Of a stretch of 64,000 bases of DNA, positions 1-14,328 are shown in pieces. How positions within the stretch are numbered: position 1 is the stretch's first letter; each line of letters opens with the position of its first letter. The notes under the pieces were generated by a model. It was given only the letters and a program-made list of their open reading frames with translations, had not been told where the DNA came from and did not search any database. The position numbers and the translations under genes were made by a program. The stretch is from Lachnospiraceae bacterium (GTDB lineage: Bacteria; Bacillota; Clostridia; Lachnospirales; Lachnospiraceae), in NCBI GenBank assembly GCA_022845955.1, contig AP025576.1:1736001-1800000 (forward strand). The letters are read 5' to 3'.

Positions 1-190
1 CTTGTTGCAGCAGCCGGCAAATACCCAGATTTCCCAGATCCTTGACACGTATGTTATCCAGACAGGTATCAAGTACGGTAAATTTGAGTATGCCACGGCA
101 ATCGGGGTGTTTAAGTCGGTATTTTCCCTGCTTTTGGTAACAACGACAAATCATCTGACGAAGAAATACGCAGAAGTGGGTCTGTGGTAA
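1..190 (+). CDS. Sugar ABC transporter permease, LplB type (C-terminal part)
   Basis: This is the last 62 or so residues of an integral membrane permease whose start lies before the window. The tail reads ...TYVIQTGIKYGKFEYATAIG... and ends YAEVGLW. That matches the end of LplB/YtcP-type permeases of oligosaccharide importers, including the final transmembrane helix and the aromatic C-terminus seen in two other permeases of this window. It is followed after 12 bases by the partner permease, so the two form one operon with the receptor gene downstream. It would form half of the membrane channel. The assignment rests on similarity to the complete paralogues at 27392-28303 and 50726-51703. Confidence 0.85.
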   Translation, partial: LLQQPANTQISQILDTYVIQTGIKYGKFEYATAIGVFKSVFSLLLVTTTNHLTKKYAEVGLW

Positions 191-202
191 AGGAGGGGGA
201 AA

Positions 203-1087
203 ATGAAAGAAACAAAGGGACAAAAAATATTTAAGGTTTTTAATTATACCATATTGTGTCTGCTTGGCCTTGTAACGTTTTATCCGTTCTGGTACGTGCT
301 GGTGGCATCCTTCAATACCGGACGGGATTTCCTGAAGGGCGGGGTCTGGCTTTATCCCAGGCAGTTCACCCTGGAAAATTATGTTATGGCGTTTAAGGAC
401 GAAAGAATCTACCAGTCTTTGTCCATATCGGTGGGTGCGACGATTCTGAGCGTGGTGGCCGGACTGCTTTTTACGGCGCTGATCGCCTATGCGTTAAGTA
501 TCCGCACGTTGCCGGGAAGGACTTTTCTTAACTTTTTCTGGTATTTTACAACCATTTTCAGCGGCGGAATGATTCCTCTTTATATGGTGCTGCGTTCTCT
601 CGGTCTTACCGGCAGCTTCTGGCTATACGTTATTCCGTCTGTTTACAGCTTTTATAACTTCGTGCTGCTTCGCACCAATTTTGCGAACATACCGTATGAA
701 CTGAGGGAATCGGCCCAGCTGGATGGGGCGAAGGAAACCACGATCCTCATGCGGATTTATATCCCTTTGTCCAAACCGATACTGGCAACGCTGGCTCTGT
801 TTATCGGCGTGGGCAAATGGAACGACTGGTTCACGGGGGCCTATTATCAGAGTAAGGCCGCGCTTTATCCGGCAGCGACCGTATTGCAGAAGATTCTGAG
901 CGAAGCGACCGCAAGCTCCCAGGTGAAGGTGGGGCAGGAAACGGCGCTGGGTTCCATGACCAGCTATACCTCCCAATCCCTGCAGATGGCATTTGTTATG
1001 ATTCTGACGATGCCTATTGTCATAATCTATCCTTTTTTGCAAAAGTATTATGTAAAAGGGGTTATGGTTGGTTCTGTGAAAGGTTAG
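203..1087 (+). CDS. Carbohydrate ABC transporter permease, LplC/YtcP type
   Basis: Integral membrane subunit of a CUT1-type oligosaccharide importer, 294 residues, the usual size. Six hydrophobic segments are visible, starting at about residue 15. The EAA loop that docks the ATPase reads ESAQLDGAKETT, and the end has the family pattern YYVKGVMVGSVKG. A strong AGGAGG precedes the ATG. It pairs with the LplB-type permease just upstream and with the lipoprotein receptor at 1160. No ATPase gene is nearby, so an ATPase encoded elsewhere (MsmX type in related Firmicutes) must energise it. Substrate is not readable from sequence; the downstream alpha-mannosidase suggests a mannose-containing glycan. 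Confidence 0.92.
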   Translation: MKETKGQKIFKVFNYTILCLLGLVTFYPFWYVLVASFNTGRDFLKGGVWLYPRQFTLENYVMAFKDERIYQSLSISVGATILSVVAGLLFTALIAYALSIRTLPGRTFLNFFWYFTTIFSGGMIPLYMVLRSLGLTGSFWLYVIPSVYSFYNFVLLRTNFANIPYELRESAQLDGAKETTILMRIYIPLSKPILATLALFIGVGKWNDWFTGAYYQSKAALYPAATVLQKILSEATASSQVKVGQETALGSMTSYTSQSLQMAFVMILTMPIVIIYPFLQKYYVKGVMVGSVKG

Positions 1088-1120
1088 ACTGCGCCCCAAA
1101 TGGCGCCAGGCGCAGTTTTA
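1088..1120 (+). terminator. Hairpin with short T tail between permease and receptor genes
   Basis: An 8-bp perfect stem (actgcgcc / ggcgcagt) with a 13-base loop is followed by TTTTA. It starts at the permease stop codon. In importer operons such hairpins act as partial terminators or protect RNA ends so that the receptor is made at a different level; that role is inferred. Confidence 0.5.
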
Positions 1121-1159
1121 TCCGGTATATATGATTCGTAAAAAAGGAGGATTTAGCGT

Positions 1160-2959
1160 ATGAGAAAGAAAAAAGCATTGGCGTTATTGCTCACGGCGGC
1201 AATGACGGCTGGGATGCTGGCAGGGTGCGGCGGTTCGAAGGAAAGCGCATCCACGGCAGGTAATGCGGGAACGGCGGACACGGCGGATACGGCCGGCAGC
1301 ACAGCCGCGGCGGCCGGAGAAACTGCGGATGACGGCGATTATTATGTGGATGAGGACGGAAATAAGTACAAAAAATTTGATGATGTCCAATTGAAAATGC
1401 TCATCTGCTGGAACGGCGGCTTCAAGACGGCCCAGGATCAGTATAACAATGATGTGGCGGCGGCAATCCGGGAAAAAATCGGTGTGACCGTGGAATTTGA
1501 AGGCATCATGATGAGCGAGGCTGAAAAACTGAATATGATGTTTGCTTCCGGAGATATGCCGGATATGGTGAATGCCCCTTACTGGGGCGGTACTGCCGGG
1601 GAAACGGCGATCATTAAGAAAGCGGGCGTGGAAGGCCGGCTGATCGATATCAAGGATATGGTGCCCAATTACCCGAATATTGCCGATGCCTACGATATAG
1701 GCGTTATCGGGCAGAAATACCTGGAAACGGACATTGATACCCCGGAAAACAACGGGGCCAGATATGTGCTTCCCACGGAAGTGGCGGGAGATGATGCCGA
1801 CATCGCACAGTGGGGGTACGGCGTATTCGTCCGCGGCGACGTTCCCGAAGCCCTTGGCATCGATCCCACTTCTATCAAGACTTCGGAGGAGCTTTATGAT
1901 TTTATGGTGAAGGCAAGGGATTACGGCTTTAAGGATGTGAACGGCAATGACTGTATCGTGGCGACAACCTACCATGACGGCTGGTCCTATGACGATTTTA
2001 TCCAAAGCTTCCAGACGAAGAAACTGACCAAATTTGAACTGGATGCCGACGGAAATGTTACTTATGACAGGCTGACCCAGGATTATATTGATAAATACCT
2101 GTTCATCTGGAAGCTCGTCAAAGAGGGGATCCTGGATAAGGAATGTTTTAAAACCTCGGACGACAGGGCAAAAGAAAAGGTGGGGAACGGTACCGCACTT
2201 TTTACCTGTGCACAGTACGGCGTAACCGTTGACGCCACCAAGCTCACCGGCCTGTATGATTCCAACCCGGAAATGCGGTATACATGGGTGGGGCCTCTGA
2301 ATTATAAGGACGGATCCCCGCTGAAGCAGATTGAACCGGACGGAAGAAACGGTTCCCCGGTTATCTTTTTCCCGAATACCTGTTCCAATATTGATGCGGC
2401 GCTCACCTGGCTTGACTATATTAACAGCAAAGAAGGGACAAAGCTGATATGCTACGGTATAGAAGGGGATACCTATGAACTGAATGCAGACGGACAGCCG
2501 AGAATGAATGCGGAATTAACCGAGAAGTATAAGGTGGATACGGAAGGTGTCAATGAAGAGCTTCGGGAAAGAGGGATTAATTACATGGCGGCCAGGACCT
2601 ATGTAGCCAAGAAAAATATGGCGTGGTTCGGCGAATCCGGCCCCTTCATGGCAGACGCGGAAAATGAGTATGTAAAACAATACAAGGAGCTGCGGCCGGT
2701 GGAGAAGATACCCGGCTATTCCATAGAAGCATTCGCTCCCGGATTTGAAGGCTACCAGGAATTTGCGGAATGGGCGTTTGACGATACAACGGAAAAAGAA
2801 TATAAGGAAAGGGCATTCTTTGCCGATACGGAAGAAGAGGCAAGAAAGATTCTGGAAGATTACCAGAACTACCTGCTTACTGGCGACGGAGGCAAGATGC
2901 AGGAATTCCTTGATTATCTGACGGAACAGTCCAAAACAAGGGACGATATCGCTTACTAG
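1160..2959 (+). CDS. Extracellular sugar-binding lipoprotein of ABC importer (LplA/YtcQ-like)
   Basis: A 599-residue secreted receptor. The N-terminus is a lipoprotein signal peptide: KKK, a hydrophobic stretch and the lipobox LAGC with the lipidated Cys at residue 23. A low-complexity Ala/Gly/Thr/Asp linker follows to about residue 55, then a large two-lobed binding domain. Its length (500-600) fits the LplA-type family rather than the roughly 420-residue MalE type. It has its own AGGAGG and a leader of about 70 bases after the permease. It would deliver an oligosaccharide to the two permeases upstream. The substrate is not known; the operon's GH38 enzyme suggests a mannoside or N-glycan piece, by inference only. 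Confidence 0.9.
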   Translation: MRKKKALALLLTAAMTAGMLAGCGGSKESASTAGNAGTADTADTAGSTAAAAGETADDGDYYVDEDGNKYKKFDDVQLKMLICWNGGFKTAQDQYNNDVAAAIREKIGVTVEFEGIMMSEAEKLNMMFASGDMPDMVNAPYWGGTAGETAIIKKAGVEGRLIDIKDMVPNYPNIADAYDIGVIGQKYLETDIDTPENNGARYVLPTEVAGDDADIAQWGYGVFVRGDVPEALGIDPTSIKTSEELYDFMVKARDYGFKDVNGNDCIVATTYHDGWSYDDFIQSFQTKKLTKFELDADGNVTYDRLTQDYIDKYLFIWKLVKEGILDKECFKTSDDRAKEKVGNGTALFTCAQYGVTVDATKLTGLYDSNPEMRYTWVGPLNYKDGSPLKQIEPDGRNGSPVIFFPNTCSNIDAALTWLDYINSKEGTKLICYGIEGDTYELNADGQPRMNAELTEKYKVDTEGVNEELRERGINYMAARTYVAKKNMAWFGESGPFMADAENEYVKQYKELRPVEKIPGYSIEAFAPGFEGYQEFAEWAFDDTTEKEYKERAFFADTEEEARKILEDYQNYLLTGDGGKMQEFLDYLTEQSKTRDDIAY

Positions 2960-2982
2960 GAACGGACAATACTTTGAGAATT

Positions 2983-3059
2983 GAGAGGGAACTTATTGGG
3001 AACAGGTTTTCCGGGGTTTGGCACGGCGCCTGGGACTATAGTAAGTTACCTCTCTTTTT
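2983..3059 (+). terminator. Branched hairpin followed by T5, after the receptor gene
   Basis: Arms at 2983-2995 and 3042-3054 pair over 13 positions with one mismatch, and five T follow directly. The 46 bases between them contain further pairing (ggaa/ttcc and a ggc...gcc stem), so the RNA would branch. It ends 24 bases before the next gene. It may be a terminator or an attenuator controlling the enzymes downstream. I do not recognise a known riboswitch. Confidence 0.5.
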
Positions 3060-3083
3060 GTCCGGCGGGGGAAAGGATGAAGA

Positions 3084-5357
3084 ATGGCATATATCAGGAA
3101 TAAAAAAGAAGAACTGACAGGGTATCAGGCAAGCGGGGATTTCCGTCCGTCCGTGGATCTGCAGTGTGATTTTGTTATGGTGTACGGAATTGACGATACG
3201 ATGCCGGACCGGATCAGGCAGTACCGGGAAAAAGGTTATGTAATCCATCTGATGACAGGGATTGCATGGGGGGAGTATCAGGATTATCTGGACGGCGGAT
3301 GGGACGGACGCAAGCACTGGGATGAGGGCCAGGTGGAACGAAGCGGCAAAGGGGTGATTCATAATCCCACCGTGCCCTATATGGTGCCTACGGTTTCCTT
3401 TTCGGAGTATCTGACCGAACGCATGAAGATTGCCGTGGACATGGGCGTGGAGGCCATCCATGTGGAAGAACCGGAATTCTGGGACAGAAACGGTTATTCG
3501 GAGGCGTTTCAGAGGGAATATGAAATCTACTACAAGGAGCCGTGGAGGCCCCAGCATGAGGATTTGGATGTGCGCTATAAATCGGCGCGGCTGAAAGCCT
3601 ATCTCTATGGCAGGGCCATAGACCGTGTGAGCGCGGCGCTGAAGGAATATGCTAAGGTAACCTATAACCGGGATCTGCGGTTTTATGTGCCCACACACAG
3701 TCTGCTGAATTATACCCAGTGGAAGATCATGAGCCCGGAGGCGGCGCTTATCAATATCCCCACGGTGGACGGCTACATTGCCCAGATTTGGACGGGAACG
3801 AGCAGGGAAGCCAATGTATATGAGGGGGTATACAAGGAACGTACCTTTGAAACCGCCTATCTGGAATACGGGGTCATGCAGGAGCTGGTGAAGGGGACCG
3901 GACGCAGGATGTGGTTCCTGAATGATCCCATAGAGGATCTGCCCTCCTATACCTGGGAAAACTACGAGTACAATTACAGAAAGACGGCGGCTGCGTCCCT
4001 GCTGCATCCCCATATCTGGCATTACGAGATCTGCCCCTGGCCCCACCGGGTATTTGACGGCAGATATCCCCGGTTCCAGCCCCATATTGCACAGAAGGAT
4101 GAGACCAGCTACGAAACGGATCAATCCAGGCCGATACCCGGCAGCTATTCCACGCTGCTTTCCGGTATGTTCCAGCTGTTCGGCGATATGGAGCAGAAGG
4201 AATTTTGGTTTGAAGGCGCCGGGGACTGCGTGGGAATTGCTATGTCGGACAGCGGCCTGTTCCAGCGTACGTTCCCGGACGGCATAGTGAACGGCAGAAG
4301 GCTGGGGGAGCGGTTTGCCATGGCAAAACATAAGAATACGGGGAATCCGGTGGATGAAGAGGCGGCCGAAGCACTGATGAAGGAGATCTCCGGGGAGGAA
4401 TCACTGCTGCTTGATTTCATCCAGAGCGATGCGTTTCCCCAGTTTTACGGCATGTCCCTGCCGCTGCTGAAATACGGCCTGCCGGTAAGGCCGGTACAGC
4501 TTGACAATGTACGGCGGTTTGCAGGTTACCTGGATGCCCTGAAGGTCCTGGTCCTCAGCTACGAGTATATGAAGCCGGAGGCCCCGGATGTAAATACCGC
4601 AGTGCTCTCCTGGGTAATGGACGGCGGAACGCTTTTGTATATCGGCGACGGGAGCGATCCCTTCCACCGAATCGATTCCTGGTGGAGAAGCTCCGGCTTT
4701 GCCGATCCTGCCCGGCATCTGTTCCGCCTGGCCGGTCTGGGGGAGACGCCGGCGGACGGCGTATACCAGGCAGGAAGGGGAAAAATCGTGGTATGGAATA
4801 TGGTGCCTGCCAAACTCTGCCTTACCAGGGAGCTGGCGCAGGAATACCGGGATAAGGTGAAAACGGCGCTGGAAGGCCTGGGACTGGCATGGGAATACCG
4901 CAGTGACCTGACCCTGCACAGAGGCCCGTATATCATATCCGCCGTCATGGATGAAAGCGTTACGGAGGAGAAAAAGTCATGGGAAGGCTTGTTTGCCGAT
5001 CTGGGCGAGAATGACTATCCCGTTATCACTCACAAGGAAATCGGGCCGGATGAAACGGCGCTGCTGTTTGATTTCGATACCATCCGGGACGACACGTTCC
5101 GTATAATCGGCAGCTCCGCCAGGGTGCTGGCGGCGCAGGCGGATGACGGCGGCTTCCGGCTGAAGCTGAAAACCGCGGACAAAATCAAGGCATTTACCCG
5201 GGTGCGTCTGCCCGGAAAGGCATCCGCCGTATGTGCGGCAATGGAGAACGGCGGGGAAATCCCCATGGAAGCGAAGTGGGATGACGCCTCCCGGACGCTG
5301 CTGCTGTGTTACGACAGCCATGGGGAAGAGGTGACGGTGACGGGCAAATGGGAGTGA
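3084..5357 (+). CDS. Putative glycoside hydrolase-like protein of unknown specificity (TIM barrel, GATase-like, beta domain)
   Basis: A 757-residue protein with no signal peptide, so it is probably cytoplasmic. The first 400 or so residues look like a TIM barrel: a strand ending VDMGVEAIHVEEPEFW offers acidic residues where a retaining glycosidase would have them, and later strands carry WFLNDPIEDL and HIWHYEICPWPHR. Residues of about 470-560 (LKVLVLSYEYMKPE, GGTLLYIGDGSDPF) resemble the class I GATase-like domain of GH42 enzymes. The end looks like a beta sandwich. This order recalls GH42 but the catalytic signature is not one I can assign. It sits between the importer receptor and the glycyl radical genes, 18 bases before the activase, so it probably acts on the imported glycan. 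Confidence 0.6.
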   Translation: MAYIRNKKEELTGYQASGDFRPSVDLQCDFVMVYGIDDTMPDRIRQYREKGYVIHLMTGIAWGEYQDYLDGGWDGRKHWDEGQVERSGKGVIHNPTVPYMVPTVSFSEYLTERMKIAVDMGVEAIHVEEPEFWDRNGYSEAFQREYEIYYKEPWRPQHEDLDVRYKSARLKAYLYGRAIDRVSAALKEYAKVTYNRDLRFYVPTHSLLNYTQWKIMSPEAALINIPTVDGYIAQIWTGTSREANVYEGVYKERTFETAYLEYGVMQELVKGTGRRMWFLNDPIEDLPSYTWENYEYNYRKTAAASLLHPHIWHYEICPWPHRVFDGRYPRFQPHIAQKDETSYETDQSRPIPGSYSTLLSGMFQLFGDMEQKEFWFEGAGDCVGIAMSDSGLFQRTFPDGIVNGRRLGERFAMAKHKNTGNPVDEEAAEALMKEISGEESLLLDFIQSDAFPQFYGMSLPLLKYGLPVRPVQLDNVRRFAGYLDALKVLVLSYEYMKPEAPDVNTAVLSWVMDGGTLLYIGDGSDPFHRIDSWWRSSGFADPARHLFRLAGLGETPADGVYQAGRGKIVVWNMVPAKLCLTRELAQEYRDKVKTALEGLGLAWEYRSDLTLHRGPYIISAVMDESVTEEKKSWEGLFADLGENDYPVITHKEIGPDETALLFDFDTIRDDTFRIIGSSARVLAAQADDGGFRLKLKTADKIKAFTRVRLPGKASAVCAAMENGGEIPMEAKWDDASRTLLLCYDSHGEEVTVTGKWE

Positions 5358-5375
5358 GAAAGACAGGAGCAAAGG

Positions 5376-6242
5376 ATGCAGACAGTACGTATTTTTAACA
5401 TACAGCATTTTTCCGTGCACGATGGGCCGGGCGTGAGGACGGTGGTATTTTTCAAGGGCTGTAACCTGCACTGCCGGTGGTGCCACAACCCGGAGTCTAT
5501 CCGCGGGGAAAAAGAAATCTTGTTGTATCCGGATCGGTGCATCGGCTGCGGGGCATGTGTACAACAGTGCCCCGCAGGGGCACACAGCTTTCCGGAGGGA
5601 AAACACAGGGTGGACAGGAAAAGGTGCATCCGCTGTTTCCGGTGCTGTGAGGAATGCTATGCCGATGCCCTGGTGTGCGTGGGGGAAGAAACGGACACGG
5701 AAACCGTGATGGATGAAATACGCCGCAATAAAGGGTACTTCGCCCATTCGGGAGGCGGTGTCACATTCTCCGGGGGAGAGTGCATGCTTCAGACAAAACC
5801 ACTCACACAGCTTTTGGAGTGCTGCAGGAGAGAAGGGATCCATACGGCGGTGGATACCGCGGGAAATGTGCCCTGGGATTCCTTCGAAGAAGTGCTTCCC
5901 CTGACCGATTTGTTTTTATATGATATCAAGGCATTTGACCCGATCGTGCATCAAAGCTGTACCGGCGTCACCAATGAAAGGATTCTTGAGAATTTCCGGA
6001 GACTGGCGGACTGCGGTGCGGCGGTTACGGTGAGGATTCCCTATGTGCCCGAATTAAACGGGACACAGCTGGAAGGGATTGCCTCATTTCTGTCCGCATA
6101 TCCGCAGATAAGGGCTGAACTGCTGCCTTACCACAGCATGGGGAATTCCAAGTACCAGGCACTGGAGGAAACGTTTTATACCGGCACGGTACCGGATAAA
6201 ACAACGGTGGAACGATTGAAAAAGAAATATCATTTTTATTGA
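5376..6242 (+). CDS. Glycyl radical enzyme activase (radical SAM, PflA family)
   Basis: A 288-residue radical SAM enzyme that would use S-adenosylmethionine to place the glycyl radical on the next gene's product. The CxxxCxxC cluster motif is C29, C33, C36 (FFKGCNLHCRWC). Two extra ferredoxin-type clusters follow: CIGCGACVQQCP at about 55-66 and CIRCFRCCEEC at about 84-94. Such a ferredoxin insert is typical of activases of dehydratase and lyase glycyl radical enzymes and is absent from the pyruvate formate-lyase activase itself. SGGGVTFSGGE is the conserved SAM-binding glycine stretch. It is 8 bases from its partner, which indicates translational coupling. Activity would need anaerobic conditions. 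Confidence 0.95.
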   Translation: MQTVRIFNIQHFSVHDGPGVRTVVFFKGCNLHCRWCHNPESIRGEKEILLYPDRCIGCGACVQQCPAGAHSFPEGKHRVDRKRCIRCFRCCEECYADALVCVGEETDTETVMDEIRRNKGYFAHSGGGVTFSGGECMLQTKPLTQLLECCRREGIHTAVDTAGNVPWDSFEEVLPLTDLFLYDIKAFDPIVHQSCTGVTNERILENFRRLADCGAAVTVRIPYVPELNGTQLEGIASFLSAYPQIRAELLPYHSMGNSKYQALEETFYTGTVPDKTTVERLKKKYHFY

Positions 6243-6250
6243 GGAGATAA

Positions 6251-8440
6251 ATGGTGAATACGGAAAAAGTAAAAATGTCCCCTTTATACCTGACCCTAAT
6301 CAGGGAACTGCATCAGGATAAGGTGGAGATAAACGACAGGAAAATTGCACGGCACGGCCCGATTGACATCGATGACCACGGATTCATCGATTTCCCGGAT
6401 TTTTCCTTTGAACCGGATCTGTGCGGGGACGGACTGGTTCACGGCTGCACGGTAATAGGAAAGAATTTCCGCAGATTCCTGCAGGAGATGCCCAGGTATG
6501 TGAACAGAAGCAGCGCTCTTGCCTGCTGCTGGGTGGGGACGCTGGACCGGTTCCTGCCTCTTGGGCTGGCGGAAGAGGAACGGCCGGCCTATCTTGCGGA
6601 CACCATCCGTAAATACAGGATCACCCAGGCGGGCTTCGGAGGTATGAACCATTTGTGCCCCGACATGGAAATCGGCCTGCGGCTGGGCTGGACGGGGCTT
6701 CTGGAAAAAATAAGGTACTGCCGGAAGAGAAACCGGCCGGCGGATCCCGATTTTTATGAAGGGGAGGAACAGCTGGTGCTGGGGATCCTGGAATGGGTGA
6801 AGGCGCATCAGCGTCTGGCACAGCAGCTGGCGGAAAAGGAAACGGATCCCTTCCGGAAAGAAAATTACGAGGCTATCGCTGCCGTAAACGGGGCGTTGTG
6901 CTGCAGGGCACCTGGTTCGTTCCGGGAGGCGGTCCAGTTCCTTGCCCATTTCCAGTCCGTGGACAGAACCTATTGCGGAGGCGGCGCCCTGGGTGCCCTG
7001 GATACGCTTCTGGAAGAATATTTTGAACGGGATATTGCCAAAGGGATCCTGACGGAGGAAGAGGCCGTGTGGATCCTTGCCAGCCTGTTTTTTAACGATA
7101 CCCATTATGCCCAGATCGGCGGACTCACCCCGTCGGGGGACCGGGAAGTGACAAGCCGGCTGTCCTTTGTGATTCTGGATGCCATGCATCTGCTCGGCAT
7201 CCCCACCAATCTGGCCGTCCGTGTCCATGCGCCGGTACCGGGACAGACGGAAGAAGCGGATATCCTTTTGAAACGCGCTGTGGAGTATACGCTGGAGGAC
7301 GGCTGCGGGGTCTGCTATTCTCTGGAAAAAGGGATCAGCGAAGGCTTTGCCAGGAACGGTTTCCCGCTGGAGCTGGGGCGGATGCGGGTGAAATGCGGCT
7401 GTAACTGGGTCGCCATTCCCGGCAGGGAATATCCGCTGCAGGATGTGACGAGAGTCAACATGGCTACGGCGCTGCACTATGCGCTGGAGGATCTGGAAGA
7501 GGCGGGGAATTATACGATGGCGCATCTGTGGGAGCTTTTCTGCACCCATCTGGGCATTATGGTGGACTGTATCAAAAAAGGCTACGACAGACATTATGAG
7601 GTGATGCAGAAGGGAATGCCCGAAATCGTGCTGAACCTGTTTATGCACGGCCCGCTGGAACGGGGGCTGAACTGTGCCAACGGCGGGGTGGATATCCTGG
7701 ATTTGAATATCGACGGTATTGCCCTGGCCACCACCGCGGATTCCTTTGCGGCGATAGAACAGAGGGTGGTGCAGGAAGGGAAGCTGACGTGGGAAAGGCT
7801 TTTTGCACTGCTGCACACCAATTATGAAGGGGCCGAAAGAGAACGCCTGATGCTGAAAAATATCAGACGGTATGGTTCGCCGCAGTCTCCGGCGGAAGCC
7901 TGGGCAGTGCGGATCCGGGATCATTATGTGAAAATCTGCAGACAGACGCCGACGCCCAAGCACCATCTGCCGATTGTTCCCGGCATGTTTTCCCATGGAG
8001 ATGTATATGCGTATGGATCGGTGCTGGAAGCCACACCCAACGGCAGGTTTGCAGGGGATCCCATCTCCCATTCCTCCGAACCGGATCCGGGTTTTGCGAG
8101 AGGGCTGGATACCTTTTCGCCCGCATTGAAGGCCAACGCGGTGGCGGTAACACAGCCCGGGTACGGAAATTCCGCGCCGCTGCATCTGGACATTGATACC
8201 GGGCTTGTGGAAAGCGAAGGAGGGGCGGAAGCGCTTGTGGCCCTGATTCATGCCCATGAGCAGGCGGGGGGAACCTTAATCAACATGAACTGTATTTCCA
8301 GAGAGAAGCTGCTAAAGGCCCACGAGGATCCCGGGGCTTATCCGGATTTGGTGGTACGGGTGACGGGATATTCCGCGTTTTTCGCGTCGCTGTCTAAGGA
8401 ATACAGACAGCAGATTGTGGATCGTTTCCTGGCACAATAA
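6251..8440 (+). CDS. Glycyl radical enzyme of unassigned class (PFL-like family)
   Basis: A 729-residue member of the pyruvate formate-lyase superfamily. The radical-bearing loop near the C-terminus reads VVRVTGYSAFF with Gly706 as the radical site. The thiyl-radical loop reads KCGCNW with Cys382 and Cys384; Cys384 aligns with the catalytic Cys. Known dehydratases and lyases (glycerol, propanediol, choline, hydroxyproline, isethionate) have GC-x-E here, and PFL has CCVSP. This protein has Trp386 at the Glu position, so its reaction is probably not one of those. The family hallmark ATPNGRFAGDP is present at about 598-608. It is coupled to the activase and sits in a sugar importer and glycosidase operon. 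The substrate is unknown; a sugar or sugar acid derived from the glycan is a reasonable guess. Confidence 0.9.
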   Translation: MVNTEKVKMSPLYLTLIRELHQDKVEINDRKIARHGPIDIDDHGFIDFPDFSFEPDLCGDGLVHGCTVIGKNFRRFLQEMPRYVNRSSALACCWVGTLDRFLPLGLAEEERPAYLADTIRKYRITQAGFGGMNHLCPDMEIGLRLGWTGLLEKIRYCRKRNRPADPDFYEGEEQLVLGILEWVKAHQRLAQQLAEKETDPFRKENYEAIAAVNGALCCRAPGSFREAVQFLAHFQSVDRTYCGGGALGALDTLLEEYFERDIAKGILTEEEAVWILASLFFNDTHYAQIGGLTPSGDREVTSRLSFVILDAMHLLGIPTNLAVRVHAPVPGQTEEADILLKRAVEYTLEDGCGVCYSLEKGISEGFARNGFPLELGRMRVKCGCNWVAIPGREYPLQDVTRVNMATALHYALEDLEEAGNYTMAHLWELFCTHLGIMVDCIKKGYDRHYEVMQKGMPEIVLNLFMHGPLERGLNCANGGVDILDLNIDGIALATTADSFAAIEQRVVQEGKLTWERLFALLHTNYEGAERERLMLKNIRRYGSPQSPAEAWAVRIRDHYVKICRQTPTPKHHLPIVPGMFSHGDVYAYGSVLEATPNGRFAGDPISHSSEPDPGFARGLDTFSPALKANAVAVTQPGYGNSAPLHLDIDTGLVESEGGAEALVALIHAHEQAGGTLINMNCISREKLLKAHEDPGAYPDLVVRVTGYSAFFASLSKEYRQQIVDRFLAQ

Positions 8441-8464
8441 ACCGAGCGGAAACGATCAAAAATC

Positions 8465-8494
8465 GTAACCGTTCAGACTTGTCTGAACGGTTAC
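8465..8494. repeat. Perfect 14-bp palindrome (GTAACCGTTCA family)
   Basis: Arms gtaaccgttcagac and gtctgaacggttac separated by TT, between the glycyl radical gene and the mannosidase. No T run follows on the + strand; ATTTTT follows on the - strand. The half-site gtaac-n-gttca recurs at 14094-14134 and 30985-31005. It could be an operator or a dispersed repeat with terminator activity. Confidence 0.6.
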
Positions 8495-8505
8495 CAAAAA
8501 TCAGG

Positions 8506-8534
8506 TAGCACAAACAGTATACCGGCCTTATAAT
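8506..8534 (+). promoter_or_regulatory. Candidate sigma-A promoter for the alpha-mannosidase gene
   Basis: A perfect -10 TATAAT at 8529-8534 lies 17 bases after a weak -35 TAGCAC at 8506-8511, about 87 bases before the GH38 start. It suggests the mannosidase can be expressed apart from the upstream operon, probably with activator help because the -35 is poor. Confidence 0.4.
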
Positions 8535-8620
8535 GAAGGAGATCCCTTTCCGTTTCCTGTGGAGAGGGTAAGAACGGTTACATAGGGAAGGCAATAGATA
8601 ACCTCAGGGAGGGAAACGAA

Positions 8621-11464
8621 ATGAGCCAACTGGTCTCAAAATTTATCAGACTGAAAACGATGATTGGCGGCAACCGGGAAAAATACGGCTATGAAGACAC
8701 CTTCGGCATGCCGAAGGAGGAGCAGGCGCATATCACGCGTCCGAGCAGAGCCAACACACGCATTCTCAGCGAGCTGGAATTTGCCCTGCATCTGTCGGAA
8801 GGGGAAAACGGCCGCTTTGACGGCGTGCTGGAAGAGGCGCTGGATTATCTGCTTGCGTGTATGCAGGAGCAGGGGGTGCTGACGGACCAGGCCTGTGAAA
8901 AGGCGGAGGAAATCCTTTCGCCCATGGAAGCCGCGGCAAAAGAATATAAGCTGATTCTGGCGTCCCATGCCCATATTGACATGAACTGGATGTGGAGCTT
9001 CGATGAAACCGTAGCGGTGACACTGGCTACCTTCCGTTCAATCCTGCATATTATGGACCAGTACCCGGACTTCTGTTTTTCCCAGTCCCAGGCTGCCGTA
9101 TATAAAATTGTGGAAGAATACGATCCGGGTCTGATGGAGGAAATTAAGAAAAGAATAGCCCAGGGGCGGTGGGAAGTGACCGCAGCAGCCTGGGTGGAAA
9201 CCGATAAGAACATGCCGGACGGGGAATCCCTGCTCCGCCATATCCGGTATACAAAAGAATATCTGTCCCAGGTCTGGGGCGTAAAGGATTTTGACATTGA
9301 TTTCTCTCCCGACACCTTCGGGCACAGCGCCAATGTGCCGGAAATCGATCATTTCGGCGGGGTGAAATACTATTACCACTGCCGCGGGAATCAAAGAAAG
9401 GATATTCTGTACCGCTACCAGGCCCCGTCCGGAAACGAAGTGCTCGCATACCGGGAACCGAACTGGTACAACGGGGCCGTCACACCCCATATAGCCGCCG
9501 GGCTGCCTGAGATTTCCCGCCGGTCGGCCGGACTGAAAACCGGCCTTGTCATCTATGGAGTGGGCGATCATGGCGGCGGCCCCACAAGGCGGGATGTGGA
9601 ACGCGCCATAGACATGATGGACTGGAAAATATATCCCGTAATCCGGTTCGGGACACTGCGGGACTATTTCCGGGAGGCGGAGGCCGTACGGGACAAGGTG
9701 CCGGTGGTCAGAGAAGAACTGAATTACTTTGCGCCGGGCTGCTATACCACCCAGAGCCGTATCAAGAGAGGGAACAGACGCCTGGAGGCGGCCCTGCTGG
9801 ATGCGGAATCCATGGCGGCCCTTGCGGGAAAAACAGCCGGCTTCCGGTTCGAAAAAAAGCGCATGGAAAAGGCGTGGCAGGACGTTTTGTTCACCCATTT
9901 TCACGACATTCTCACCGGTTCCTGCGTGCAGGAGTCCAGAGAACATGCCATGGGACTGTTCCAGACGTCCATGGCGTGTGCAGACACCCAGCGGCAGAAT
10001 GCCATGCGGGTAATCGGGGAGCAGATTGACACCTCCGCAATCCTTGTGGATATCGATGCGTTCAACAGCCAGTCCGAAGGGGCAGGGGCCGGATATGGCA
10101 TTGAGAATTTCACAGGGGTTCCCAGTACGGAACGGGGGAGCGGCCGCACAAGGATCTTCCATATCTTTAATACCCGTACAAGGAAACGCAGCGAGGTGGT
10201 GGAGCTGACCGTATGGGACTGGACCGGGGATTTGCGCCGTCTGCAGCTGAAGGATTATACGGGAAAAGAAATCACCTTCCAGCTGCTGGATAAGGAGCTT
10301 CAGACTTATTGGGATCATAAATATATCCGGGTGCTGGCGGATGTGACGGTGCCCGCCCTGGGTTATACCACGGTGGTGCTGTCCCAAAAGGAAGCGGATA
10401 CTTATCCCGTATACCTGCAGGAAAGAGAACAGGTCTCTTCGGTTTTTGATAATTACGTGCTCTCCAACGATCAGATCACCGTTGAAATCGAAGCGGGATC
10501 CGGAAGAATCCGTTCGCTGAAAAGCAACGGAACGAAGGAAGAGCTGATTGCGGAGGGAAAAACGGCGGGACTGCATTTCATCGAGACGGAAACCGTCACC
10601 TCCAGCGCCTGGAACATAGGCCGCCCCCTGAAGACGACGCCTGTGGATCGCTGTGTGAAGCTGGAACGCGCCGCACAAGGCCCCTTACGGGAAAGCATCC
10701 GGGCGGTATACCGGGTAGCGGATTCTACAGCGGAGGTGCTCTACATCCTGGATAAGCACCAGCCGGCGGTACGGATGGAACTGAACATCGACTGGCATGA
10801 AAGCGGATCGGAAATCATTCCGGTATTGGATTATAAAATCCCGGTTGCATACCGTACTTCGGAATACCGGTATGATATACCTGCCGGTACGGTAGTCAGA
10901 AAAGAACGAAACAATGATGTGCCGGCGCTCCGGTATGGGATGGCGCTCCGGGAGGACGGGGACTGTGCGGTCCTGATAAGTGACTGTAAATACGGATACA
11001 GAGGTACGGACAATACACTGGCACTGACCCTGATCAACAGCTCCACCAGCCCGGATCCTTATCCGGAAAGAGGGATACATACGATCAACCTGTGGCTTGG
11101 AATCAGCTGCGGGGATCCCAGGATAACCGAAGAACTGGCGGATTCCTGTAATCACGGTATGTTTTACCAGCCGTCCAATTCCCATCACGGAACACTCCCC
11201 ATGGAAGAGAGCCTGCTGGAAACGGCTTCGGACAGTGTTGTGATTTCGGCCGTCCAGCCTTCGGCGGACGGGGCGCTGCTGCTGCGCGGGTATGAGACAG
11301 CGGGCAGCAGGTCGGTACTTGCTGTTACCTGTAAGGAAGAGCCGTCTTCGGCAGTCCTGACAGATTTGTTTGAGCAGGAAATATCCGGAGAGGTGGTAAC
11401 GGACGGCTGTACGGTTCAGGTTTCCGTGGAACCTTATTCCCTGTTCCAGCTTAAGATACGGTAG
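8621..11464 (+). CDS. Alpha-mannosidase, glycoside hydrolase family 38
   Basis: A 947-residue GH38 enzyme that removes alpha-linked mannose with retention of configuration, using zinc. The N-terminal catalytic domain shows the zinc ligands in SHAHIDMNWMW (His118, Asp120) and the nucleophile in SPDTFGHS (Asp231). The remaining ligand loop is in the stretch LFTHFHDILTG at about 424-434. The C-terminal half is the expected helical bundle and beta-sandwich region. There is no signal peptide, so it would act in the cytoplasm on imported oligosaccharides. It follows a 180-base gap with a palindrome and a possible promoter. A good GGGAGG precedes the ATG. Anomeric linkage preference cannot be read from sequence. 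Confidence 0.93.
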   Translation: MSQLVSKFIRLKTMIGGNREKYGYEDTFGMPKEEQAHITRPSRANTRILSELEFALHLSEGENGRFDGVLEEALDYLLACMQEQGVLTDQACEKAEEILSPMEAAAKEYKLILASHAHIDMNWMWSFDETVAVTLATFRSILHIMDQYPDFCFSQSQAAVYKIVEEYDPGLMEEIKKRIAQGRWEVTAAAWVETDKNMPDGESLLRHIRYTKEYLSQVWGVKDFDIDFSPDTFGHSANVPEIDHFGGVKYYYHCRGNQRKDILYRYQAPSGNEVLAYREPNWYNGAVTPHIAAGLPEISRRSAGLKTGLVIYGVGDHGGGPTRRDVERAIDMMDWKIYPVIRFGTLRDYFREAEAVRDKVPVVREELNYFAPGCYTTQSRIKRGNRRLEAALLDAESMAALAGKTAGFRFEKKRMEKAWQDVLFTHFHDILTGSCVQESREHAMGLFQTSMACADTQRQNAMRVIGEQIDTSAILVDIDAFNSQSEGAGAGYGIENFTGVPSTERGSGRTRIFHIFNTRTRKRSEVVELTVWDWTGDLRRLQLKDYTGKEITFQLLDKELQTYWDHKYIRVLADVTVPALGYTTVVLSQKEADTYPVYLQEREQVSSVFDNYVLSNDQITVEIEAGSGRIRSLKSNGTKEELIAEGKTAGLHFIETETVTSSAWNIGRPLKTTPVDRCVKLERAAQGPLRESIRAVYRVADSTAEVLYILDKHQPAVRMELNIDWHESGSEIIPVLDYKIPVAYRTSEYRYDIPAGTVVRKERNNDVPALRYGMALREDGDCAVLISDCKYGYRGTDNTLALTLINSSTSPDPYPERGIHTINLWLGISCGDPRITEELADSCNHGMFYQPSNSHHGTLPMEESLLETASDSVVISAVQPSADGALLLRGYETAGSRSVLAVTCKEEPSSAVLTDLFEQEISGEVVTDGCTVQVSVEPYSLFQLKIR

Positions 11465-11493
11465 TATTCCTGTTTGCACTCTTGAATCATTTT

Positions 11494-11526
11494 CTCAGTA
11501 CTGTGCAGTATATGCACAGTACTGAG
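11494..11526. repeat. Perfect palindrome with CAGTACTGTGCA core
   Basis: Arms ctcagtactgtgca and tgcacagtactgag around a 5-base loop, just after the mannosidase gene. The 14-base left arm is found again inside 14094-14134. No long T run follows, so a terminator role is only possible. Confidence 0.6.
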
Positions 11527-11673
11527 TGAATAGTAAGGTTTGCTTTTTCTGCCTCTCCGATTGGCGCAGACAGGGTTCTGTGCTATACTGTCAGAAGAAA
11601 CCGAAGAGCTCCGGATACGGAAGACGGTCCGCGGGCGGCTTCCCTTTTCAGAAACGGCGGAACGGAGGCAGAT

Positions 11674-12912
11674 ATGCTGCGTAATACGAAAAAAGACATG
11701 ACCCCTTTTGCTATGGAGAAAAAACCCGTGAAGCAGTATCCTTTTCTGCTTCCCCTCATCTGGGGAGGCGCCTGGCTGATGACCAGACGTTACGGACTCA
11801 AAATTAAAAAGGTAAACATGGAGCACCTCAGGCCACCCTACCTGGTGCTGTCCACCCATCAGGGTTTTTCCGACTATTATATCGCCCCGCTGGCCCTGTT
11901 TCCCCACAGGGCCAATTATGTATCCGATATGGAAGGCTTTGCCGCTTTTGGGGAATGGCTGTACAGAGGGATTGGCTGTATCGGAAAAAGAAGATATGTC
12001 TCCGATATCAAGGTGGTAAAAAACATCTCCTATGCCCTGCATAAAAACAGGCAGATCGTGGCGGTATTCCCCGAATCCAGGCATTCCAACGCGGGTACTA
12101 CCGCATATATCCCCAAAAATATGGGTAAGCTGGCAAAACTCATGGATGTGCCGGTGGTGATGCTCACCGTTCACGGGAGCTATCTCGCCGGCCCGTTTTG
12201 GGACGAAGAGCATCCCAGGAAGGTTCCCATGCGGGCGAAGCTGGAATGCATCTACACAAAGGAAGAACTGGACAGAGCGGAGGAAGAAGAGATCCAGCGG
12301 AAAATAGAAGCCTGCCTGCAGTACGATGAGTACCGGTGGCAGCGGGAGGAGAAGATAGCTGTCCGCTATCCCCGGCGGGCGGAAGGCCTGCATATGGCCT
12401 TGTATCAATGCCGGGCCTGCCATACGCCCTTCCGCATGAACAGCAAAGGCTGCCGCCTGTTCTGTGAATCCTGCGGCGCGGAGTGGGAAATGGATGAATA
12501 CGGCCGGCTGCTGGGAGAAAAGAACGCGCCCGCCGCCATACCGGACTGGTATGAGTGGGAGCGCGGCCAGGTGGAAAAAGAAATCACAAGCGGAACCTAC
12601 CGCTGTGAACTGCCTGTGCGGGTGGAAGCCCTTCCCAATGCCAAAGGCTTCTTTAGCCTGGGAGAAGGGCGGCTTATACAGGAAGAGAAGGGATTTACCC
12701 TTTCGGTACAGGACAGGGAGTTGTTCTTTGATCATCGTTCCAGGGAATCCGTCCAGACGGAGTATAATTACCGGGGCAGAGGCCCCTGCATTGTCCTGTC
12801 GGATAAAGACTGCTGTTACTACATATACTCCGACAGCCCGGAATTTAATCCCACCAGGATACAGTTTGCAGGGGAATATTATTACCGGGGCGGGAATGGG
12901 GTATCTGTATAA
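11674..12912 (+). CDS. PlsC-like acyltransferase with C-terminal zinc ribbon
   Basis: A 412-residue protein. Residues of about 45-200 are a lysophospholipid acyltransferase domain: the catalytic HX4D motif is HQGFSDYY, and the substrate loop AVFPESRHS replaces the usual FPEG-T. It would transfer an acyl group to a lysophospholipid or glycerol phosphate at the membrane. After about residue 245 comes a four-Cys zinc ribbon (CRAC then CESC, preceded by an extra Cys), followed by an acidic region and a beta-rich tail with no family I know. PlsC proteins are usually about 240 residues, so the extra 170 are unusual. GGAGG lies 8 bases before the ATG. The gene stands alone. Confidence 0.75.
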   Translation: MLRNTKKDMTPFAMEKKPVKQYPFLLPLIWGGAWLMTRRYGLKIKKVNMEHLRPPYLVLSTHQGFSDYYIAPLALFPHRANYVSDMEGFAAFGEWLYRGIGCIGKRRYVSDIKVVKNISYALHKNRQIVAVFPESRHSNAGTTAYIPKNMGKLAKLMDVPVVMLTVHGSYLAGPFWDEEHPRKVPMRAKLECIYTKEELDRAEEEEIQRKIEACLQYDEYRWQREEKIAVRYPRRAEGLHMALYQCRACHTPFRMNSKGCRLFCESCGAEWEMDEYGRLLGEKNAPAAIPDWYEWERGQVEKEITSGTYRCELPVRVEALPNAKGFFSLGEGRLIQEEKGFTLSVQDRELFFDHRSRESVQTEYNYRGRGPCIVLSDKDCCYYIYSDSPEFNPTRIQFAGEYYYRGGNGVSV

Positions 12913-13023
12913 TCAGAAGGGGCAGTTTTTTATTGCAAAGCTGTCGGGCAGGCACAGCGTGGGATATTGATGTGAAGCAGTGTACAGCCACTTGGGAAAA
13001 GAAAAGAGGTGTTATGGTAAAAA

Positions 13024-13938
13024 ATGAGAGGAAAAAAATTTGCTTTACTCATGGCTGCCGGTGCGCTTTTTCTTTCCGCATGTGCAGGAAACCACTCTGA
13101 TAAAGCTGGGCCGGTTAGTACAGAGGAAGCAGTCCATGTTAAACCAAATGAATATATTACGGAGATTAATTACTGGGGGAATCACTTTTATATTGAAGAT
13201 GGTATTTTGTATGGAAGCGGTGGAAATTCCTATGGACAGTTGGGGCTGGGAAAGATAGATGAACTTGAAGTAAGCTATGAAGAACAGGAAATCGCAAGGG
13301 ATGTAAAGCATATAGATTTTAATGGATTTACCTTGCTGTATATTACGGAGGATGCGCAGTTATATGGTATCGGGCTGAACCACAGAGGCCAGTTGGGACG
13401 GGAAATTACAATCAACAATAACTCCTATGTGGCGGATAATTGCCTGAGCAGACCGGTATTAATTACAGAGGATGTCCGGTTTGCTTCTATCGGACTTGCC
13501 CATATACTGATCTTAAAAGAGGATGGTTCCCTGTGGGGGATCGGAGACAACCTGAATGGGCAGCTTGGAATAAAAAAGGAACGGGTCAATAATTACTCTT
13601 CACCGGAGTCTTATTCCACAGTCCCTGTATTTATTATGGATAAAGTGGTGGCAATTGCTGCGCAAAGCTATAATTCGGCAGCAATAACGGAAATAGGAAG
13701 CCTTTATTTGTGGGGGGACAACAGCAGCGGGCAGATAGGAAATGGTAAATTCGGCAATGGATTCCCTACCATTTCAGACTGCGTATCTACACTTCCTGAA
13801 ATGATTCTGGAGCATATGACGGAATTTTATTTTACTTATGAAGATACGCGGGGTGTCATATGCCATGCCAGAAGCGAATGGACAGGACAAGAATATTGGT
13901 GGAGAAACAGTCCGCCTAAATTAGTGGAAGAGAGGTAG
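13024..13938 (+). CDS. RCC1-repeat lipoprotein
   Basis: A 304-residue secreted lipoprotein: signal peptide RGKKFALLMAAGALF with lipobox LSAC, Cys20. The mature part carries RCC1-type (regulator of chromosome condensation) beta-propeller repeats, recognised by GGNSYGQLGLG, GLNHRGQLG, GDNLNGQLGI and GDNSSGQIGNG. About five repeats fit, which is fewer than the seven blades of a closed RCC1 propeller. The last blade seems atypical. Its DNA is visibly richer in A and T than the genes before it. Function is unknown; such proteins are probably protein-binding surface modules. A GAGGTG lies 12 bases before the chosen ATG. Confidence 0.75.
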   Translation: MRGKKFALLMAAGALFLSACAGNHSDKAGPVSTEEAVHVKPNEYITEINYWGNHFYIEDGILYGSGGNSYGQLGLGKIDELEVSYEEQEIARDVKHIDFNGFTLLYITEDAQLYGIGLNHRGQLGREITINNNSYVADNCLSRPVLITEDVRFASIGLAHILILKEDGSLWGIGDNLNGQLGIKKERVNNYSSPESYSTVPVFIMDKVVAIAAQSYNSAAITEIGSLYLWGDNSSGQIGNGKFGNGFPTISDCVSTLPEMILEHMTEFYFTYEDTRGVICHARSEWTGQEYWWRNSPPKLVEER

Positions 13939-14093
13939 CGTTTTCCGGTATTTCTCTGGGATATTTTCTTTTAGCGGAATAGAAATTATCTGAGGAAAAC
14001 AGATATAGAATAAATTAAAAAAGCAGTAGATTAAAGGGGAGGAACACCAGAGTTAGGAACTGCAGCAGCGTAGAGAGGTCTGTTGAGACAAAT

Positions 14094-14134
14094 GTTACCG
14101 TTCACTCAGTACTGTGCATTTACTGAACAGTAAC
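14094..14134. repeat. 41-base imperfect palindrome of the dispersed repeat family
   Basis: Outer arms gttaccgttcact and actgaacagtaac... pair with mismatches; the middle holds ctcagtactgtgca, identical to one arm of the palindrome at 11494. The stretch ctgtgcatttactg is repeated exactly at 38169-38182. It therefore links several palindromes of the window into one family. Confidence 0.65.
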
Positions 14135-14173
14135 AGGCAAACCGCGGAACGCTGGGAAAATATTCTAATACCG

Positions 14174-14202
14174 TTGATTTTATGGGAAGAGAAGCTTATA
14201 CT
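14174..14202 (+). promoter_or_regulatory. Sigma-A promoter for the GH127 gene
   Basis: -35 TTGATT at 14174-14179, a 17-base spacer, and -10 TATACT at 14197-14202. It implies a leader of about 120 bases and supports translation from 14329 and not from 14182. Confidence 0.6.
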
Positions 14203-14328
14203 GCAATTGGAGATACGGCGGCGGATTCTTTGAACCTGTTCCTGAGCGCAAAAGCTTCCGCCAACACCTTTACTATCATTAAGGATGCAGTATCGCAGAC
14301 AGACCTGCGATATGCAGAGGGTATCATC

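Follow-up and report, generated by a model that had tools for sequence, protein, structure and literature searches.

What might a glycyl radical enzyme (GRE) do in a gene cluster whose other members resemble parts of an oligosaccharide importer and glycosidases? GREs are oxygen-sensitive and carry out some of the hardest anaerobic bond cleavages. The question is raised by a 64,000-nucleotide stretch of DNA from a Lachnospiraceae bacterium (contig AP025576.1, positions 1,736,001 to 1,800,000; hereafter the window), which is part of a 7.29-Mb genome. An earlier interpretation made from the letters alone (the sequence-only reading) had proposed that this GRE performs a radical step on a sugar or sugar acid freed from a mannose-containing glycan. 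Many abundant gut GREs have no known function, according to the available part of PMC11574389. At the level of sequence, GREs that carry the motif GC[NH]W around their catalytic cysteine, the window enzyme among them, are a distinct and sharply defined family, and in our judgement it is quite probable that the window enzyme acts on some carbohydrate.

The enzyme and its active site

The GRE, its key residues and its activating enzyme are encoded as follows:

6251..8440, + strand: glycyl radical enzyme of the GC[NH]W family, 729 aa (PF02901 and PF01228)
7400..7408, + strand: catalytic Cys384 (TGT), Asn385 and Trp386 (TGG), Trp386 occupying the place of the glutamate of the CxE motif
8366..8368, + strand: glycyl radical site Gly706 within the loop RVTGYSAFF
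5376..6242, + strand: GRE-activating radical S-adenosylmethionine enzyme (TIGR02494, 323 bits, cut-off 174)

Both GRE domains score over their cut-offs (PF02901 217.6 bits, E 5e-64; PF01228 48.0 bits, E 2e-12). Cys384, the Gly706 loop and the activase motifs, namely CX3CX2C at residues 29-36 and two ferredoxin-type cysteine motifs, are all intact, and the activase and GRE genes are tightly coupled, with a gap of 8 bp. Judged by its domains, cysteine, glycyl loop and activase, the window protein belongs to the superfamily of GREs that resemble pyruvate formate-lyase (PFL).

Its place among characterised members of this superfamily is another matter. None of the full-length NCBIfam GRE models that it matched was reached; the best match gave 184 bits where that model demands 678, and the cut-offs extend from 678 to 1150 bits. 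Choline trimethylamine-lyase (CutC), hydroxyproline dehydratase (HypD), isethionate lyase (IslA/IseG) and sulfopropanediol dehydratase (HpsG) share with the window GRE the superfamily, the radical machinery and the type of activase, but wherever a model for CutC, HypD or HpsG was matched, the score remained under the NCBIfam cut-off, and these identities were rejected (135 of 1050, 146 of 1100 and 154 of 1000 bits, respectively, the last with two sulfopropanediol dehydratase models both missed). No IslA model was among the NCBIfam models matched. The identities of 4-hydroxyphenylacetate decarboxylase (105 of 1150 bits) and indoleacetate decarboxylase (81 of 1100 bits) were discarded as well. 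PFL has an adjacent Cys-Cys pair; the window enzyme has GCNW in its place and obtains 54 of 994 bits with TIGR01255, so that PFL was likewise rejected.

A sequence search of the PDB returned 34 matches, all of them GREs or GRE spare parts, with PflD (8yjo) as the best (E 3e-41). We also built a structural model from 22 family members (predicted local distance difference test, pLDDT, 88.9). Among the 50 Foldseek rows shown for it, ranks 1-44 are eliminase-type or unassigned GREs, led by propanediol dehydratase 5i2g, PflD 8yjo, CutC and PflD with 1,5-anhydromannitol-6-phosphate (8id0), and including HypD. Structures of X-succinate synthases rank below the eliminases, benzylsuccinate synthase appearing from rank 45, and 4-hydroxyphenylacetate decarboxylase stands at rank 50. 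The overall predicted fold is thus nearest to the eliminases.

The likeness to glycerol and 1,2-propanediol dehydratases extends beyond the fold to the catalytic cysteine and to His134 and Asp398, both kept, which align with two substrate-binding residues of glycerol dehydratase. However, Glu435 of the dehydratases aligns with Trp386, and identity is about 19%. A glycerol or propanediol dehydratase with the usual glutamate was therefore rejected. As far as the accessible part of PMC6453916 goes, the glutamate at this place is conserved in isethionate lyase and needed for deprotonation; for CutC, the role of the same residue as a base is disputed in the part of PMC12838924 available.

A family marked by tryptophan

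A scan of genome contigs with a profile made from the alignment of three members revealed 99 relatives, and in the best 80 loci, which were kept, the motif is GCNW or GCHW without exception (80/80). Together with three further loci (L012-L014) and five rows from the control draw, these form the 88 family rows used below. Some rows are duplicates (L013 and L074 come from a single contig, L012 and L014 from the genome of the window itself), and the contigs differ greatly in length. For comparison, 40 control places were hand-picked from weaker, mostly non-PFL matches. From 27 of them came 31 of the 39 rows of other GREs, five proved to be family members and eight, perhaps class III ribonucleotide reductases, gave no GRE row, as did L015 of the window genome. 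The remaining eight other rows are four from the window genome, two second GREs of family loci and two from E. coli. To be included, a GRE frame had to reach 400 aa and 40 bits.

Trp386 is present in all 88 family rows and in none of the 39 others, 33 of which have glutamate; the Cys-x-Glu motif of eliminase GREs is hence absent from all family rows. Other residues, among them Gln288, Arg379, His433, His607, Phe615, Asn678 and Arg719, are likewise invariant or nearly so in the family and absent from the other GREs. In a tree of 75 rows, the product of a quick search with some long branches and no X-succinate synthase reference sequence, the 33 family rows make up one side of a branch whose Shimodaira-Hasegawa-like approximate likelihood ratio support (SH-aLRT) is 100; its stem measures 1.22 changes per column. 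The E. coli enzymes YbiW and PflD, and also a separate GRE of the window genome (L002), are placed elsewhere. Placement in a characterised cluster would have spoken against the sequence-only reading; by the missed NCBIfam cut-offs, the separate clade and the tryptophan signature, the enzyme belongs to none of the characterised families that could be tested. Our literature search found nothing on a GC[NH]W family; most subscription journals were outside its coverage.

Of 391 genomes sampled evenly across the class, 27 (that of the window among them) yielded a family member, with at most two candidates scored per genome. The same draw gives 21 of 223 genera and 11 of 317 high-quality genomes. 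The window genome has two family GREs, that of the window and L012, which are 60% identical. Eisenbergiella tayi DSM 26961, the closest match among the fetched records, from which those very near the window's own may be missing, has at least three family loci (L020, L023, L027), of which L020 is syntenic with the window and encodes a GRE 91% identical to its own. Family members occur in Bacillota and, by record titles and taxonomy, also in Verrucomicrobiota, Lentisphaerota, Planctomycetota and Gemmatimonadota. Three (L034, L035 and L037) reside in metagenome-assembled genomes, of which one is from an unplaced bacterium and the others are titled Latescibacterota and Gemmatimonadetes. An activase-type gene lies within 3 kb of 74/88 family members and of 33/39 other GREs.

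The locus and its most telling partner

The other features of the locus are these:

about -814 to 190, beginning outside the window: first ATP-binding cassette (ABC) permease (gene map of L014, 10186-11190)
203..1087, + strand: second ABC permease (PF00528, E 2e-6)
1160..2959, + strand: solute-binding-like lipoprotein, 599 aa (lipobox-like N-terminus, judged by eye)
3084..5357, + strand: orphan glycoside-hydrolase-like protein, 757 aa (predicted three-domain fold like that of clan GH-A)
8465..8494: perfect palindrome of 30 bp within the 180-bp gap between the GRE and GH38 genes
8621..11464, + strand: GH38-family protein (alpha-mannosidase family), 947 aa (PF01074, E 3e-46; PF09261; PF07748; PF17677)

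From 203 to 11464, the genes for permease, lipoprotein, orphan, activase, GRE and GH38 protein all lie on the + strand, separated in this order by 72, 124, 18, 8 and 180 bp. The arrangement described in the sequence-only reading, importer, unknown glycosidase-like protein, coupled activase and GRE, and GH38 on one strand with short gaps, is thereby confirmed, the gap before GH38 being the widest. The operon apparently begins beyond the window's edge.

The lipoprotein has no Pfam or NCBIfam match; its homologues adjoin permeases in five other loci (L020, L021, L025, L048, L176). Orphan, activase and GRE genes are found together again in the syntenic E. tayi locus (L020), in L021, L022, L025 and L176, and in L048/L175. 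This conservation exceeds chance. The GRE of L048/L175 is only 36% identical to that of the window, and the orphan there (genome G430) is 50% identical. Since the gene order differs in L025, L048 and L176, the shared content reflects more than the recent descent of one block. Six of 88 family loci have the orphan gene, against 0/39 for control GREs. An alignment search for it in the 391 genomes, again with at most two candidates scored in each, gave three positives (the window genome, G430 and G549), always in the same locus as a family GRE. No other partner of the family GRE is as telling as the orphan gene.

What kind of protein is the orphan? It lacks any sequence match in Pfam, NCBIfam or the PDB, and in this it differs from GH164 and GH42, whose three-domain architecture, that of clan GH-A, its model shares. 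The EEP at residues 128-130 and E315 are invariant in 6/6 sequences. Structural alignments to GH164 and GH42 show about 8-13% identity, and the model ties among GH42, GH164, an exo-glucosaminidase and a 1,2-beta-glucosyltransferase. We therefore dismissed the specific assignment as a beta-mannosidase; the predicted fold is of the clan GH-A glycosidase type, in keeping with what had been suspected of this protein from its sequence.

The GH38 protein has all four GH38 domains of Pfam, with the N, middle and C domains over cut-off. It fails the mannosylglycerate-hydrolase equivalog model (83 of 1138 bits), however, and its assignment is at the level of the family. Activase, GRE and GH38 genes follow one another directly in the window, L020, L022, L024 and L221. 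A half-site of the palindrome before the GH38 gene has 186 matches in the genome at no more than one mismatch, compared with one for the reversed control, which makes it a dispersed palindromic repeat rather than a local operator.

Two genes 3' of the locus may be mentioned in passing. One (13024-13938) encodes a lipoprotein-like protein with RCC1 repeats (PF00415), which we judge unusual in a bacterial protein; the other (14182-16620) encodes a GH127-type beta-L-arabinofuranosidase-like protein.

Neighbourhoods across the family

The closest relatives of the window GRE constitute a near clade of 22 loci (window, L012, L020-L037, L176 and L221), defined by motif and tree, with L176 and L221 assigned by motif only. 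In the fetched DNA, 13/22 have at least one glycosidase-type gene (GH38, orphan or GH106-like) and 10/22 have matching ABC permeases. In L023 the GH106-like gene is about 6 kb away, behind genes of the opposite strand.

The more distant branch is often surrounded by Gfo/Idh/MocA genes, up to eight of them in one locus (L052). Within 5 kb and on the strand of the GRE, a Gfo/Idh/MocA gene accompanies 42/88 family GREs and 3/39 others (Fisher p 6e-6); the neighbour profiles used for this count derive from genes in the fetched loci, most of which are family loci. Roughly one family row in two has no such gene nearby, partly because contigs end. In the even draw of class genomes it stands beside 16/31 members; this draw overlaps the 88 rows (L175 and L048 are one contig) and is not an independent replicate. 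Genes of AP_endonuc_2 type lie within 10 kb of 22/88 family GREs and 2/39 others. A few members are close to D-lyxose-isomerase, N-acetylglucosamine-2-epimerase-family, D-mannonate-dehydratase-family (ManD-like), GH2 mannosidase-type and GH106-like genes. Within 8 kb, the first four are counted 2, 5, 4 and 1 times per 88 family rows (the two lyxose isomerases being one contig entered twice) and 0, 0, 0 and 2 times per 39 others. These numbers are too few and no conclusion was rested on them.

In L176 (3-4971), genes of tagatose-bisphosphate-aldolase, FGGY kinase, galactitol-phosphate-dehydrogenase, PfkB and aldo/keto reductase type share the strand of the GRE genes and immediately precede them. 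They looked like a galactitol/tagatose-type pathway, which was rejected as a family trait, since only one of these five genes, a dehydrogenase, had homologues in the loci searched (E 1e-20): one near a family GRE (L057) and two near other GREs (L019, L131).

The common thread of the family neighbourhoods is carbohydrate metabolism, with mannose suggested as the type of sugar. The interpretation in the sequence-only reading is partly supported. A sugar is favoured by the carbohydrate context and by the predicted GH-A fold of the orphan. The mannose-containing glycan is not supported as worded, since it depends on membership in GH38 and on a likeness in fold to GH164 that GH42 and others match equally.

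GREs outside the family deserve a separate remark, since unassigned ones recur in sugar-type loci of the window genome. One with motif GCGEY (L018, G000:C1:1640000-1659000, positions 2-9919) shares its strand with two GH38 genes and with a gene that clusters with a GH2 mannosidase-type protein. Another GCGEY enzyme (L019) adjoins a Gfo/Idh/MocA gene, with ABC permeases further off. Elsewhere, two GRE/activase pairs stand in tandem on one strand of L024 (6214-15419), their GREs belonging to different families (motifs ACWEF and GCNW), and GH38 comes next. Seven GRE frames are packed within about 47 kb of one contig of a class member (L177, L178 and L179, G252:C24:20000-79999); the four in L149 have four different motifs.

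Possible function

We suggest, with a probability of about 0.5, that the locus serves to import and cleave an oligosaccharide and that its GRE splits, by radical chemistry, a C-O bond in a sugar, polyol or anhydro-sugar released from it in unphosphorylated form. The binding protein and permeases would import the oligosaccharide, and the orphan and GH38 proteins, neither of which has a signal peptide at its N-terminus as judged by eye, would cut it in the cytoplasm. The activase would place the radical on Gly706, from where it would pass to Cys384. The resulting thiyl radical might abstract a hydrogen atom from a hydroxyl-bearing carbon; the substrate radical would drive C-O cleavage, by dehydration or ring opening, and the hydrogen atom would then return. 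Trp386 could stack on the sugar ring. Because it replaces the glutamate, a different residue has to provide for any proton transfer.

Several observations weigh against this proposal. We infer the substrate of such a sugar C-O lyase from gene context, sequence and predicted fold. The GRE dehydratases and lyases compared (YbiW, PflD and those in the PDB alignments) keep the glutamate, and elimination without it is unproven. The model of the orphan is of modest confidence (pLDDT 63). Nine of the 22 near-clade loci have no such glycosidases in the fetched DNA (L026, L029-L035 and L037; in three cases the contig is shorter than 8 kb). Relatives whose neighbourhoods lack glycan genes are what the sequence-only reading had named as refuting it, and these nine loci do so only in part. 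GH38 is not enriched in the family as a whole (8/88 versus 3/39 other GREs), so the idea that it marks the whole family was abandoned; its co-transcription in the window is not assured either, because the 180-bp gap holds the dispersed palindrome. The GRE family is rare among close kin: of 200 genomes from the taxonomic family of the window, 2 have it, the window genome counted. Finally, the genome is crowded with transporters. It holds at least 150 BPD_transp_1 matches (and 12 of GH38), permease proximity alone therefore means little, and we rejected the argument that an ABC neighbour proves the function.

Among the alternatives, an unlikely one is that the enzyme is a non-phosphorylated counterpart of YbiW and PflD, which opens the ring of 1,5-anhydromannitol or 1,5-anhydroglucitol to give a 1-deoxyketose; in other members, Gfo/Idh/MocA enzymes like 1,5-anhydrofructose reductase would act upstream of it. 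A Gfo/Idh/MocA enzyme does reduce 1,5-anhydrofructose, and the family is linked to such genes. PflD is moreover the best sequence match in the PDB and, as 8id0 too, among the top fold matches; the superfamily is shared, the fold is similar, and a sugar-type substrate is suspected for the window GRE. The chemistry itself is documented. In the part of PMC12441222 available to us, the glycyl radical of YbiW and PflD converts 1,5-anhydroglucitol-6-phosphate and 1,5-anhydromannitol-6-phosphate to 1-deoxyfructose-6-phosphate, and the premise of the sequence-only reading, that no GRE is established in glycan breakdown, is on this account out of date. However, YbiW and PflD keep the glutamate (GCIE and GCVE) where the window GRE has tryptophan, and they are distant from it in the tree. 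Their settings differ as well: a phosphotransferase system (PTS) is encoded at pflD and a fructose-6-phosphate aldolase beside ybiW, whereas the window GRE has ABC transport genes and glycosidases, and Pfam matches to the genes at 203-16620 of the window include neither a sugar PTS nor such an aldolase.

Somewhat more doubtful still is a radical dehydratase or decarboxylase whose substrate, an oxidised sugar or cyclitol (keto-sugar, inosose, aldonate or uronate), would be supplied by dehydrogenases of the Gfo/Idh/MocA type. The Gfo/Idh/MocA and AP_endonuc_2-type genes around the more distant members would fit this, L052 above all, as would L023, where a short-chain dehydrogenase/reductase (SDR), a ManD-like dehydratase and another SDR are 3' of the GRE. 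Yet no Gfo/Idh/MocA match is present among the window genes scanned and few are in the near clade, and decarboxylase GREs are far under their cut-offs and low in fold rank.

We consider it improbable that the GRE serves fermentation or redox metabolism in general, say as a diol dehydratase for fermentation products of deoxysugars, and is co-regulated with glycan uptake by happenstance. The operon could be loose, and fold and part of the pocket resemble propanediol dehydratase; but the glutamate base is absent, equivalog cut-offs are missed, the genome has the separate glycerol-dehydratase-like GRE L002 (motif GCVEP), and the pairing with the orphan glycosidase-like gene is recurrent. Very improbable is a redox-neutral radical "glycoside lyase" that would cut the glycosidic (or ring) C-O bond of an intact, unphosphorylated sugar or disaccharide. 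It would take a hydrogen atom from C2, expel the substituent at C1 and release a 1,5-anhydroketose, while Trp386 would stack on the sugar; in other members, Gfo/Idh/MocA reductases would be the downstream partners.

Taken together, we have described a clear and sizeable family, spread over several phyla, whose catalytic motif is altered, whose gene context leans towards carbohydrates and whose proposed function is testable; this is not proof of new chemistry. If GC[NH]W GREs act on sugars, the part played by radical chemistry in anaerobic glycan breakdown would extend further than the anhydrohexitol-phosphate route.

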